Assembly: GCF_900112595.1 (NCBI RefSeq)
Contig: NZ_FOMI01000011.1
Coordinates: 22,269-86,268, forward strand
DNA length: 64,000 bases
Reading direction: 5' to 3'
Origin: Algibacter pectinivorans
GTDB taxonomy: Bacteria; Bacteroidota; Bacteroidia; Flavobacteriales; Flavobacteriaceae
This document shows, piece by piece, positions 17,677 to 22,045 of the stretch. Both the position numbers and the translations under genes were made by a program. Within the stretch, counting starts at the first letter, position 1, and the number at the start of each line of letters is the position of its first letter. The notes below the pieces were generated by a model. That model was given only the letters and a program-made list of their open reading frames with translations, searched no databases and was not told the origin of the DNA.

Positions 17677-18015
17677 TTAAGCTTTTTGTTTAAGTTTAAC
17701 TCTTCTTCTTTCAGCCCAAGAAATAGCATGTTTATCTAACGCTACTGTTAAATAACGCATAAAACGCTCATCACGTCTAAACTCAACTTCTAAAGGTGTA
17801 ATAACTTCTCCTGGTACAGTGTACTCAAATAAATGGTAGAAGCCACTTTTCTTGTTTTGAATTGGGTAAGCTAATTTTTTAAGCCCCCAATCTTCTTTTG
17901 ATACCATCTTAGCGCCGTTAGAAACAAGAAAATCTTCGTATTTCTTTACTGTTTCCTTTATCTGGTCTTCAGATAAAACGGGATTTAAGATGAAAACAGT
18001 TTCATAATGATTCAT
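17677..18015 (-). CDS. rpsF: 30S ribosomal protein S6
   Basis: 112 residues, typical S6, which pairs with S18 on the small-subunit platform. It opens [18 protein letters not shown] and contains [22 protein letters not shown] and [10 protein letters not shown]. It is first in the operon and is preceded by a full consensus promoter. In other bacteria the S6-S18 complex can bind its own mRNA leader; the leader here is only about 27 bases, so there is no evidence for that control. Confidence 0.97.
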
Positions 18016-18047
18016 AAAAATCTATTTTTATTGTTAAAAATTGGCTG

Positions 18048-18078
18048 CAAAAATAATTAAATTCTGTATATTACACAA
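18048..18078 (-). promoter_or_regulatory. promoter of the rpsF operon
   Basis: Minus strand: TTG (18076-18078), exactly 20 bases, TATTTTTG (18048-18055). This is one of the best matches to the Bacteroidetes consensus in the window. Transcription should start near 18042. Confidence 0.8.
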
Positions 18079-18163
18079 TATTATTTCTTCCTATTTTAAA
18101 AAGTTTAACAGCTACATTTTATTTGTTAATGAAATGTTAAATAACGTATTTAAACGATGATTT

Positions 18164-18194
18164 TTGGTTTTTAACCGAAAAAATCGTACTATTG
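18164..18194 (+). promoter_or_regulatory. probable promoter of the LytTR regulator gene
   Basis: TTG (18164-18166), 20 bases, TACTATTG (18187-18194). The -7 element has one departure from TAnnTTTG (A at the fifth position). The leader would be about 27 bases. Confidence 0.5.
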
Positions 18195-18225
18195 TCGATA
18201 TCTTAACCGAAATAATATAAATGTT

Positions 18226-18921
18226 ATGACTTTAAACTGTGTAGTAGTAGATGATTCAGCGATACAACGTCTGTCTATTGTTAAGTTGGTCGAGAACCAC
18301 CCTTCTCTTAACTTAATAGCAGAATACAGTAGCGCTTTAGAAACTAAAAATGGTTTAAATACGCATCAAGTAGACCTAATTTTTTTAGACATTGAAATGC
18401 CAGTGTTAAATGGATTTGAACTATTAGACGTATTAAACAACAAACCTCAAATTATTTTTGTAACCGGTAAAACTGAATATGCTTTTAAAGCATTTAACTA
18501 TGATGCTACCGATTATTTACATAAACCAATTACAAGAGAACGTTTTAATACCTCTGTAGATAAAGCGCTAGAGCAACATAGGTTGACTTTAGACTTTAAT
18601 GAAGAGGAAGGCGAGCACATTTTTGTAAAAAGCAACCTTAAAAAACGTAAAGTATATATTAAGGATATTAAATGGATTGAAGCCCTTGGTGATTATGTAA
18701 AACTTGTTACTGAAGAAAACAGCTTAGTAGTACTTTCTACAATGAAATCTTTTGAAGCCGAATTACCCGAAGGGAAATTTTTAAGAATTCATAAATCTTA
18801 TATTGTGAATCTAGATAAGATTGACAGATTTAACAGTAAAAATGTTGAAGTTGGCGCATACGAAATTCCGTTAAGTAGAAATAAAAAGACCCAATTGGTT
18901 GATGCCTTAAACAATATTTAA
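18226..18921 (+). CDS. LytTR-family response regulator (orphan)
   Basis: A 231-residue two-component regulator. The receiver domain (about 1-120) has the acidic pair D9-D10, the phospho-acceptor D55 in FLDIEMP, the T in FVTGKTEYA and the K in LHKPI. A LytTR DNA-binding domain follows (about 130-231: IFVKSNLKKRKVYIKDI, IEALGDYVKL, FLRIHKSYIVN, IPLSRNKK). It binds DNA as a regulator once phosphorylated. No histidine kinase lies nearby, so its partner is elsewhere. Targets are unknown. The gene is divergent from the rpsF operon and ends at a hairpin derived from a priA-like fragment. Confidence 0.93.
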   Translation: MTLNCVVVDDSAIQRLSIVKLVENHPSLNLIAEYSSALETKNGLNTHQVDLIFLDIEMPVLNGFELLDVLNNKPQIIFVTGKTEYAFKAFNYDATDYLHKPITRERFNTSVDKALEQHRLTLDFNEEEGEHIFVKSNLKKRKVYIKDIKWIEALGDYVKLVTEENSLVVLSTMKSFEAELPEGKFLRIHKSYIVNLDKIDRFNSKNVEVGAYEIPLSRNKKTQLVDALNNI

Positions 18922-19004
18922 GGACTTTAAAAAAATTATGATAAACTCCTTACATAAGTCTGGACCGAATCATTTATAAAATTTGTTTATAAATTTATAT
19001 ATCA

Positions 19005-19112
19005 TTAAAAGTTATCGTCATTTAGAATTACCCTAACAAACGGAAAATCTTTTATAATCAAGAAGCTATTATTACATTTTAATAATAGCTTCTTTTATTT
19101 TTAATCTCAGAC
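19005..19112 (-). pseudogene. degenerate second copy of the priA 3' end
   Basis: Read on the minus strand, this stretch repeats the last 30 or so codons of the intact priA that stops at 19142. The fragment encodes KEAIIK and then, after a single-base shift, NNSFLIIKDFPFVRVILND followed by DNF and a TAA stop at 19005-19007. The intact gene has KEAIMKINNSFMSVKDFRSVRVVLNVDNF split over the same positions. By eye about three quarters of bases match over 19011-19100, and the match fades beyond about 19110. Changes are largely conservative at protein level (V/I, F/F, DN kept), so this looks like the tail of a diverged priA allele rather than a fresh duplication. It has no start and is not functional as a gene. 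Confidence 0.8.
19060..19101 (+). terminator. terminator of the LytTR gene, formed inside the priA remnant
   Basis: A perfect 14-bp stem (AAGAAGCTATTATT at 19060-19073 with AATAATAGCTTCTT at 19081-19094), a 7-base loop and a T-rich tail (TTATTTTT). The arms correspond to the KEAII and NNSF codons of the priA fragment. The intact priA holds the matching but imperfect inverted repeat. Confidence 0.8.
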
Positions 19113-19141
19113 TAATAACAAACAAATTAGCAAGGAGACAA

Positions 19142-21592
19142 CTAGAAATTATCGACATTTAGAACAACCCTTACCGACCTAAAATCTTTAACACTCATAA
19201 AGCTGTTATTAATTTTCATAATGGCTTCTTTTGTTTTTGCTAACGATTGTTGTTTTGGAATTTTAACCAAAATGTTTTTATGAAACTGATTCCTTATTCT
19301 GGCCACTGGTGGCGACTCCGGCCCCAACACATAATCTTTAAACACCTGCCTAAGCGACTTTGCATACCATATAGAAGCGGTTTCTACCTTATTATAATCC
19401 TTATGTTTTAAAGTAATTTTTATCTGCTTGTAAACCGGCGGATATTTAAAATTATACCTATCATCCATTTGCTCCTTAAACATATCTATATAATTATTAG
19501 TAGATACTTGTTGCAAAATATTATGGTATGGATTATACGTTTGTATTAAAACCTTACCACGCTCTTCGGTACGTCCTGCCCTACCAGATACTTGCTGCAT
19601 AAGCTGAAAACTACGCTCGTGCGCTCTAAAATCTGGAAAATTAAGCATATTATCGGCATTCATAATACCAACCAGCTTTACGTTTCTAAAATCTAAACCT
19701 TTAGTTAGCATTTGGGTGCCTACCAGAATATCAATTTCTTGTTGCTCTAATGCAGTAATTATTTTCTCGTAACCATATTTGCCGCGCGTGGTATCTAAAT
19801 CCATTCGCGCTACTTTGTGCTCCGGGAAAAGCAATTTTACTTCCCCTTCTATTTGCTCTGTTCCAAAACCTTTACTGTCTAAATCTTGACCGCCACAGGC
19901 TTCACAATTTTGCTTCATAGCAGAATTATAACCGCAATAGTGACAGCGCAATTGATTTCTATATTGGTGGTAAGTTAAACTCACATCGCAATTAGGACAT
20001 TGCGGCGAGTGCCCACATGTATTACACTCCACAATTGGGGAGAATCCTCGTCGGTTTTGGAATAATATTACTTGATGGCCTTCACTTAGGGTTTCTTGCA
20101 TTTCCTCAATTAACCTATCGCTAAAATGCCCTTTCATGCGCTTCCTTTTTAGCTTATCCTTAATATCAACCAACTCAATATCGGGCATTAAAACGTCGTT
20201 ATAACGCTTTGTAATTTCAACAAACCCATATTTATCTTGTTGCGCATTAAAGTAACTTTCTAGACTTGGAGTAGCAGAACCCAAGAGCGTTTTAGCCTTG
20301 TGCATGTGCGCTAAAACTACAGCAGTATCGCGCGCATGGTAACGCGGTGCAGGATCAAATTGCTTAAACGATTGTTCGTGCTCCTCATCCACTATAATTA
20401 AGCCTAAATTATCGAAAGGTAAAAATATAGACGAGCGTGCGCCTAGTATTATTTTCGCTTTCGCGGAATTGTGCAGTACATTATTCCACACCTCAACACG
20501 CTCGTGCGTTGAGTATTTAGAGTGAAAAACAGCAACCTGCTCGCCAAAGTAATTTTGTAATCTTGTAACCAATTGTGTGGTTAAAGCTATTTCTGGAAGT
20601 AAATATAAAACCTGCTTTCCTTGTTGGATTACATCTTCTATAAGTTTTACATACACCTCGGTTTTACCTGATGATGTTACACCATGTAATAAGGTAACGT
20701 GATGTTTTTCAAAAGACGCTTTTATTTCTGTTAAGGCTGCCTGTTGATACTCATTAAGTCGTTTTGAAGCTTCGGTTTCTTCGCCAGAATACTCTACCCT
20801 ATCCCTTTGAATATAATATTCTTTAAGAACACCTTTATTAATTAAAGATTTTATGATCGAGCTAGAGGCACCACTTTCGGTAGTTAAATCGCTAACCTTT
20901 ACAGGCTTTTTTGTTTTGGCAGAAATAGAAAACAACGTCATAACAACATCGCGTTGTTTTGGTGCTCTACTCAAATCATCCAACAATTTATGAAGCTCTA
21001 CCTCGGCCGTGTAATGCGGATCTAACTTAACATAACGCACCAATTTTGGTTTATACTTTTCATAAACCTCTTCCTCTACAGTAATAGCCTCTTTCTCAAT
21101 AAGCCTTTTAATAACAGGAAGAACATTCTTTTTATCTAAAATACTAGCAATATCATGAATCTTTAAAGAGGATTGATGGTGCAACGCTTCGTAAACCAAA
21201 AACTCATCATCTTTTAATATAGACTCATCAATAGTATTAACATTGTTTTTAGTAATTACAGTTTCGCTTTCTAAAATAAAAGCACTTGGCAATGCAGCCC
21301 GCATTACATCTCCCATAGTACACATATAATACTCCGAGATCCAATGCCAAAGTTTTAACTGGTACTCATTTACTACAGGCGATTCATCTAATATTTGTTC
21401 AATGTCTTTCGCCTCATAAGCTGCAGGTGCATTCTCATGTATGTTAAAAACAACACCGGTATATATTTTAGATTTTCCAAAAGGCACAGCAACGCGCATA
21501 CCAACTTTTAAAAAATTGGCTTCGGCAGCAGTTATGCTATACGTAAATAGCTTTTGAAGCGGTATAGGAATTATAACGTCTATAAAGTGCAA
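19142..21592 (-). CDS. priA: primosomal replication helicase PriA
   Basis: An 816-residue 3'-to-5' DNA helicase that reloads the replisome at stalled forks. The N-terminal DNA-binding part (about 1-110) is followed by a winged-helix stretch, Walker A GVTSSGKT (about 306-313), the DEEH box (VDEEHEQSF, about 400), and a zinc-binding insert with eight cysteines (CNTCGHSPQCPNC and CHYCG with CEACG, about 520-570). Helicase motifs follow (GTQMLTKGLDF, QVSGRAGR). The C-terminal domain ends VRVVLNVDNF. It starts 30 bases after the DUF2147 gene on the same strand, probably in one transcript with nadC and the yihY-like gene. A decayed copy of its 3' end lies directly downstream. Confidence 0.97.
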   Translation of the reverse strand: MHFIDVIIPIPLQKLFTYSITAAEANFLKVGMRVAVPFGKSKIYTGVVFNIHENAPAAYEAKDIEQILDESPVVNEYQLKLWHWISEYYMCTMGDVMRAALPSAFILESETVITKNNVNTIDESILKDDEFLVYEALHHQSSLKIHDIASILDKKNVLPVIKRLIEKEAITVEEEVYEKYKPKLVRYVKLDPHYTAEVELHKLLDDLSRAPKQRDVVMTLFSISAKTKKPVKVSDLTTESGASSSIIKSLINKGVLKEYYIQRDRVEYSGEETEASKRLNEYQQAALTEIKASFEKHHVTLLHGVTSSGKTEVYVKLIEDVIQQGKQVLYLLPEIALTTQLVTRLQNYFGEQVAVFHSKYSTHERVEVWNNVLHNSAKAKIILGARSSIFLPFDNLGLIIVDEEHEQSFKQFDPAPRYHARDTAVVLAHMHKAKTLLGSATPSLESYFNAQQDKYGFVEITKRYNDVLMPDIELVDIKDKLKRKRMKGHFSDRLIEEMQETLSEGHQVILFQNRRGFSPIVECNTCGHSPQCPNCDVSLTYHQYRNQLRCHYCGYNSAMKQNCEACGGQDLDSKGFGTEQIEGEVKLLFPEHKVARMDLDTTRGKYGYEKIITALEQQEIDILVGTQMLTKGLDFRNVKLVGIMNADNMLNFPDFRAHERSFQLMQQVSGRAGRTEERGKVLIQTYNPYHNILQQVSTNNYIDMFKEQMDDRYNFKYPPVYKQIKITLKHKDYNKVETASIWYAKSLRQVFKDYVLGPESPPVARIRNQFHKNILVKIPKQQSLAKTKEAIMKINNSFMSVKDFRSVRVVLNVDNF

Positions 21593-21622: not shown

Positions 21623-22045
21623 TTATTGATGGCGAATCCAATATTGTGTAAGGTATAAAAAAGAAATATAGCCACGTACTTGAAGCTTTCCTGTATCCTC
21701 CATTAACTTTATTCTGCACTTATATTCTTTTCCATTTTCAGCATCGAAAATAGTTCCGTTTTTATAATATTCGTCTTGCTTTTCCAGCTCATTAATAATA
21801 ACCATACCTAAAATTGGTTTATCTTTTTTATCACCTTCACAGTTTTGACACAAAGTATTTTTATCAAACGGCTCTAGTATTTCTATAACCTTGCCAAAAA
21901 TCTTACCGTTTTCTTCATAAATATCTACAATACATTTATGTGCGCCTGTTTCATCATCAACCGTTTTCCATTGTCCTAAAACACCTTGAGATTGCACCGT
22001 TAGCAACAAACAATATAACACTATAAAACACATATAATTCTTCAT
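21623..22045 (-). CDS. DUF2147 family exported protein
   Basis: 140 residues with a signal peptide (about 1-20, ending VQSQ). The mature part begins GVLGQWKTVDDETG and includes CIVDIYEENGKIFGKV and a cysteine pair LCQNCEGD, then KPILGMVIINEL, the pattern of DUF2147, a small beta-barrel-like periplasmic family of unknown role. The last residues read LTQYWIRHQ, the usual W-x-R end. It is 2 bases downstream of the yihY-like gene and 30 bases upstream of priA. Confidence 0.85.
   Translation of the reverse strand: MKNYMCFIVLYCLLLTVQSQGVLGQWKTVDDETGAHKCIVDIYEENGKIFGKVIEILEPFDKNTLCQNCEGDKKDKPILGMVIINELEKQDEYYKNGTIFDAENGKEYKCRIKLMEDTGKLQVRGYISFLYLTQYWIRHQ

Follow-up and report, generated by a model that had tools for sequence, protein, structure and literature searches.

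We analysed a 64-kb stretch of the Algibacter pectinivorans genome (the window) that carries the convergent genes for a LytTR response regulator (lytTR) and the replication restart helicase PriA (Table 1). Between them lies a second, degenerate copy of the priA 3' end (R), placed between the lytTR stop and the intact end of the gene (T). Sequence conservation is much higher for the LytTR regulator than for PriA, with 95-100% identity in many genera in which PriA reaches 80-89%.

Table 1. Features of the lytTR-priA locus in the window.
Feature	Position	Strand	Remarks
lytTR (LytTR response regulator gene), convergent with priA	18226..18921	+	Pfam Response_reg 1.6e-18, LytTR 5.2e-19; ORF
Intergenic stretch, lytTR stop to copy R	18922..19004	+	AT palindrome ~18979-18996
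Copy R of the last 96 priA bases	19005..19101	-	1 extra base, out of frame; TAA 19005-19007
Terminator-like hairpin within copy R	19060..19094	+ (lytTR sense)	dG -15.8 kcal/mol
T-rich tract, directly 3' of the R hairpin	19095..19103	+	TTATTTTTA
Spacer, copy R to priA stop	19102..19141	no strand	
T, intact priA 3' end	19142..19237	-	
Decayed hairpin in intact priA end T	19200..19227	+	dG -7.0
priA, replication restart helicase	19142..21592	-	TIGR00595 588.7 bits; Pfam domains

The degenerate second priA 3' end that a first-pass annotation had described next to the intact gene is real. R is identical to the priA end at 77 of 96 bases, with one extra base, and the alignment scored 92 compared with a maximum of 39 after shuffling. 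Chance similarity was ruled out, as 0 of 2000 dinucleotide shuffles were as good. The TAA of R aligns with the priA stop, as had been noted, and the reported one-base insertion is also present; it breaks the reading frame and falls in a hairpin loop (~19074-19080). The range first given, 19005-19141, holds for the copy only as far as 19101, the remaining 19102-19141 being spacer. When 18900-19300 was searched against the window's own genome (E <= 0.001), the two matches obtained were the query region against itself and the hairpin, a 35-base inverted match within that region; at this cut-off, no other place in the genome matched. The plasmid records searched gave no match.

In 2 of 10 genomes of the genus, those of the window and of A. 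amylolyticus DSM 29199, the PriA C-terminus was matched a second time immediately after the gene; the other eight had no such match downstream of priA. We further surveyed the best 80 of 578 named relatives (81 loci with the window), among which only A. amylolyticus (L072) carried a tail copy (score 105; all others at most 28). A fixed-offset check for own-tail copies in 60 further loci of the family gave no score above 29. The A. amylolyticus copy lacks the extra base and is an open frame, in frame, whereas the frame of the window copy is broken. Judged from these sequences, R is an old copy of the priA 3' end that is common to both species.

On the plus strand, R contains a perfect inverted repeat of 14 pairs, 139 bases past the lytTR stop; the inserted base falls in its loop, and a T tract follows directly. 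It was the only terminator-like site with dG < -9 kcal/mol found for lytTR in the window and in L072, and we infer that lytTR is the gene served by this putative terminator. At the same cut-off, however, the window contains 46 such sites, so a hairpin of equal strength in one genome proves little; 23 of these lie inside ORFs, 11 of them antisense, and the case therefore rests on comparison between genomes. A simple terminator scan gave 3 sites against 2.5 expected. Rfam 15 returned no family above its gathering score in 18000-19700, the only match being RF04343 (22.2 bits against a cut-off of 55.8, E 0.31). A bidirectional terminator was considered and rejected: the minus-strand stem is followed by GATTATAAAA, with no T tract, and a terminator-like site for priA itself, on the priA strand within 450 bases, was present in just 4 of the 81 loci.

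The genus-mates carry this hairpin within their intact priA gene, with a lytTR-priA gap of only 15-22 bases in L073-L077. The priA end was therefore tested for a second constraint. An opposite-strand hairpin with a T tract (dG < -9 kcal/mol) was present inside the priA coding sequence in 67 of the 81 loci; we chose this cut-off and a search reach of 140 bases into priA. A hairpin in the gap was found in none of these 67 loci and in 13 of the 14 others, and no locus had both (Fisher p 4e-14, although the loci are related by descent and their counts are thus not independent). The single locus with neither, L132, has a gap hairpin of -7.6. The median lytTR-priA gap was 30 bases in the in-gene loci versus 241.5 bases in the others (Mann-Whitney p 5e-7). 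The terminator-like hairpins lie at least 51 bases past the lytTR stop in the loci scanned.

The exclusion was also seen in the 60 further genomes of the family, of which 0 had both hairpins; three of these loci (L183, L188 and L212) apparently duplicate the contigs of L151, L121 and L124. Where the gap could be measured (41 genomes), 18 had the in-gene hairpin only, 17 the gap hairpin only and 6 neither. The other 19 had no usable gap length, partly because lytTR seems to overlap priA, and comprised 9 in-gene cases and 10 with neither. By eye, the same AAGC...GCTT motif was recognised in 24 of the 27 further in-gene cases, being absent from L193, L217 and L225. In L182, L113, L122, L128 and similar loci the in-gene stem is longer, with a dG of -16.0 to -24.5.

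Codon choice at the priA end is unusual in the loci compared. Across 79 loci, the last 33 codons had a synonymous conservation excess of 0.212, compared with a mean of 0.067 (sd 0.027, maximum 0.135) in other priA windows. Against synonymous-codon randomisations the hairpin reached a mean z of -3.07 on the lytTR strand and -1.86 on the priA strand, while ten control regions gave means of -0.76 to 0.13 on the lytTR strand. In the in-gene loci, the stem Ser codon was AGC in 67/67 (background 8%) and the stem Phe codon TTC in 61/67 (background 14%); GCA or GCG was used in 0/67 stem Ala codons (background 48%), and ATA in 0/66 codons at one stem Ile (background 31%). The same Phe was TTT in 12 of 12 loci without the in-gene hairpin, a comparison set that leaves out L072 and the window.

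Base pairing pointed in the same direction. Stem cells were paired in 98.1% of cases across the 67 in-gene loci, with 823 Watson-Crick and 97 G-U pairs against 2 A-C and 16 other mismatches; the excess of G-U over A-C is in part a consequence of the genetic code, through T/C-ending codons. Four stem pairs had changed on both sides, a number reached by 7 of 500 shuffles, and this involved 12 stem cells, which 0 of 500 shuffles reached. Together, covariation and codon bias argue that pairing has been kept by selection in the 67 in-gene relatives.

R and T have diverged along different lines in the two species that carry both. The R hairpins have a dG of -15.8 (window) and -16.2 (L072), compared with -7.0 and -4.9 for the T hairpins, which are within or near the synonymous null (6/60 and 26/60 randomisations as good, respectively). 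Relative to the majority sequence of five genus-mates, window R has 8 changes, 5 of them at codon position 2, whereas window T has 16 changes and none at that position; in A. amylolyticus the copy has 10 changes and the intact tail 12. The earlier description of the changes in R as mostly conservative therefore does not hold. Among changes common to both species, 5/8 in R and 0/10 in T are at codon position 2 (Fisher p 0.0065), which indicates that the copy evolves as noncoding and the tail as coding sequence. Within the stem, both copies are unchanged at all 28 bases, versus 5 changes in the intact tail of the window and 4 in that of L072; the absence of changes in R is not significant alone (0.063) and comes from two species.

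Between the two species, R differs by 2 substitutions in 89 sites, compared with 22 in 121 sites for flanking noncoding sequence (Fisher p 0.0003); the one extra loop base comes in addition, and the T tract differs at 1 of 9 bases. R is the slowest noncoding stretch of the lytTR-priA gap. The first-pass annotation had considered the copy now dead, which is correct for its coding capacity in the window; a lack of function is at odds with this slow evolution.

We propose that the final ~100 bases of priA may, in a large part of the family, do two jobs, encoding the PriA C-terminus and providing, on the opposite strand, an intrinsic lytTR terminator made of the hairpin and T tract. In the common ancestor of the window species and A. 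amylolyticus, the priA tail would have become doubled. R, beside lytTR, would have been freed from protein reading and have kept the terminator, while in T, joined to the gene, the hairpin would have become dispensable and been lost through changes that the protein tolerates. With the terminator kept by R and the protein end by T, the apparent remnant would therefore be a lytTR terminator derived from a former piece of priA. R most likely works as such, and the hairpin presumably terminates lytTR in the cell. We put the probability that the copy event split two overlapping functions, a subfunctionalisation below gene scale, at roughly 80%.

That R is instead a functionless pseudogene fragment whose decay is still to come seems very improbable. 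Its broken frame in the window, the missing start codon and the codon position 2 changes in both species would all be expected once protein constraint was lost, but such a fragment should not evolve more slowly than its noncoding flanks, keep a perfect 14-pair stem with the inserted base confined to the loop, and be the only terminator-like site of this strength for lytTR. Another reading accepts the in-gene hairpin and gives it a different role, in mRNA stability, as a DNA site or in priA translation. It could draw on the conservation of priA codons 800-814, which lie outside the hairpin and show a synonymous excess of 0.234 in the 67 in-gene loci versus 0.104 in the 12 others. Yet the T tract on the lytTR strand, the stronger pairing on that strand than on the priA strand, and the mutual exclusion of the in-gene hairpin and unrelated intergenic terminators are not what such a role predicts, and we regard it as quite improbable.

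How the second tail arose is a separate matter. The first-pass annotation had favoured allele replacement, in which a foreign priA recombined in the 3' end and the old tail was left behind as debris. The 83 bases between R and lytTR resemble the gaps of L079, L091 and L085 (local scores 57, 43 and 41; best of 300 shuffles, 38), so R keeps the old junction to lytTR, and T with its unrelated spacer looks inserted, as replacement would have it. A simple tandem duplication should have left a spacer similar to 18922-19004; against this, 19102-19141 showed no similarity to that stretch or to the intergenic gaps tested. Moreover, the first 270 codons of priA tend towards the A. lectus group (ultrafast bootstrap 74; grouping with L074 not rejected, p 0.086), which makes recombination near priA plausible. 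R is also nearer to relatives than to its own gene, as the annotation had expected of a replaced allele: window R differs from L073 and L074 at 8 of 96 sites and from its own intact tail at 20. As evidence for replacement, however, this is confounded, because R keeps the hairpin that relatives keep inside priA and T has lost it. A remnant's similarity to relatives alone is thus no evidence of gene replacement.

A foreign origin of the priA 3' end finds no support in the best tree, in which the final 270 codons of intact priA group, with modest support, with the genus-mate L074 (ultrafast bootstrap 84). The six flanking genes do likewise (69; genus clade 100) and reject the A. lectus group (AU p 0.0002), which for the priA 3' end is not formally rejected (AU p 0.062). 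T itself is nearest to L074 among the 67 tails compared (12 and 10 differences), and in a tree of the 96-base tails R and T each also group loosely with other taxa (supports 23-60). Sliding identity along priA revealed no clear donor, third positions being near saturation, and the highest relevant support in 130-codon window trees of priA was 66. We consider replacement by a foreign allele rather unlikely and prefer within-lineage duplication, but the data would be matched equally well by import from a close relative; even with a donor as close as L074, R would remain a terminator, as it would in either case.

The proposed element shares with intrinsic (Rho-independent) terminators its stem, short loop and T-rich tract, at least 51 bases after the lytTR stop, and differs in that, in 67/81 loci, the convergent gene's coding sequence encloses it entirely. 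The usual terminator predictors can score in-gene sites and search tail-to-tail regions (PMC1852404). As in overlapping convergent transcripts of the excludon type, the lytTR mRNA would overlap the 3' end of the priA mRNA, and long 3' overlaps between convergent genes have been described (PMC7154746; PMC3027695). Unlike in those cases, the overlap here would end at a conserved site that constrains the codon choice of the other gene. A further parallel lies in the duplication-degeneration-complementation model, in which two copies each lose a different ancestral function. Here, by contrast, the unit would be ~100 bases long, and its two functions would be the end of a protein and an RNA hairpin on the other strand. 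A literature search, with most subscription papers outside its reach, returned no account of a priA-internal terminator, or of one set free by duplication of a gene's tail.

If our reading is true, the locus would be a natural experiment on overlapping functions, in which a terminator embedded in an essential gene governs codon choice throughout many genera, and in which two species escape the overlap by copying ~100 bases. Short 'gene remnants' beside intact genes may then be working noncoding elements.

The conserved stretch at priA codons 800-814 (numbered as in L073; window residues are two higher) has a distinctive codon usage in the in-gene loci, with CGG in 40/66 Arg, GTC in 46/66 Val and AAC in 45/66 Asn codons, and corresponds to plus strand ~19005-19050 in copy R. 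No second stem was predicted in the conserved upstream stretch (34 of the 67 sequences). It is conceivable, if unlikely, that the strand opposite priA carries a lytTR 3' UTR element reaching beyond the terminator, perhaps a regulatory RNA, which would span these codons and have been released whole by the duplication. Were this so, sister lineages would show the same conflict between an essential protein and its neighbour's RNA both before and after it was resolved.

Two smaller features of the locus were also observed. In the window and in A. amylolyticus L072, yihY and priA are separated by a DUF2147 gene (21623-22045; Pfam 4e-28), which was not found at this position in the genus-mates L073-L077 or L086. 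The best matches to it come from A. lectus L089 (81%), A. miyuki L101 (77%) and A. pacificus L087 (71%), and an import of this gene together with the priA 5' end is possible. The AT palindrome AAATTTG...AAATTT in the stretch between lytTR and R is kept in the gaps of L079, L091 and L085 and in both copy-bearing species.
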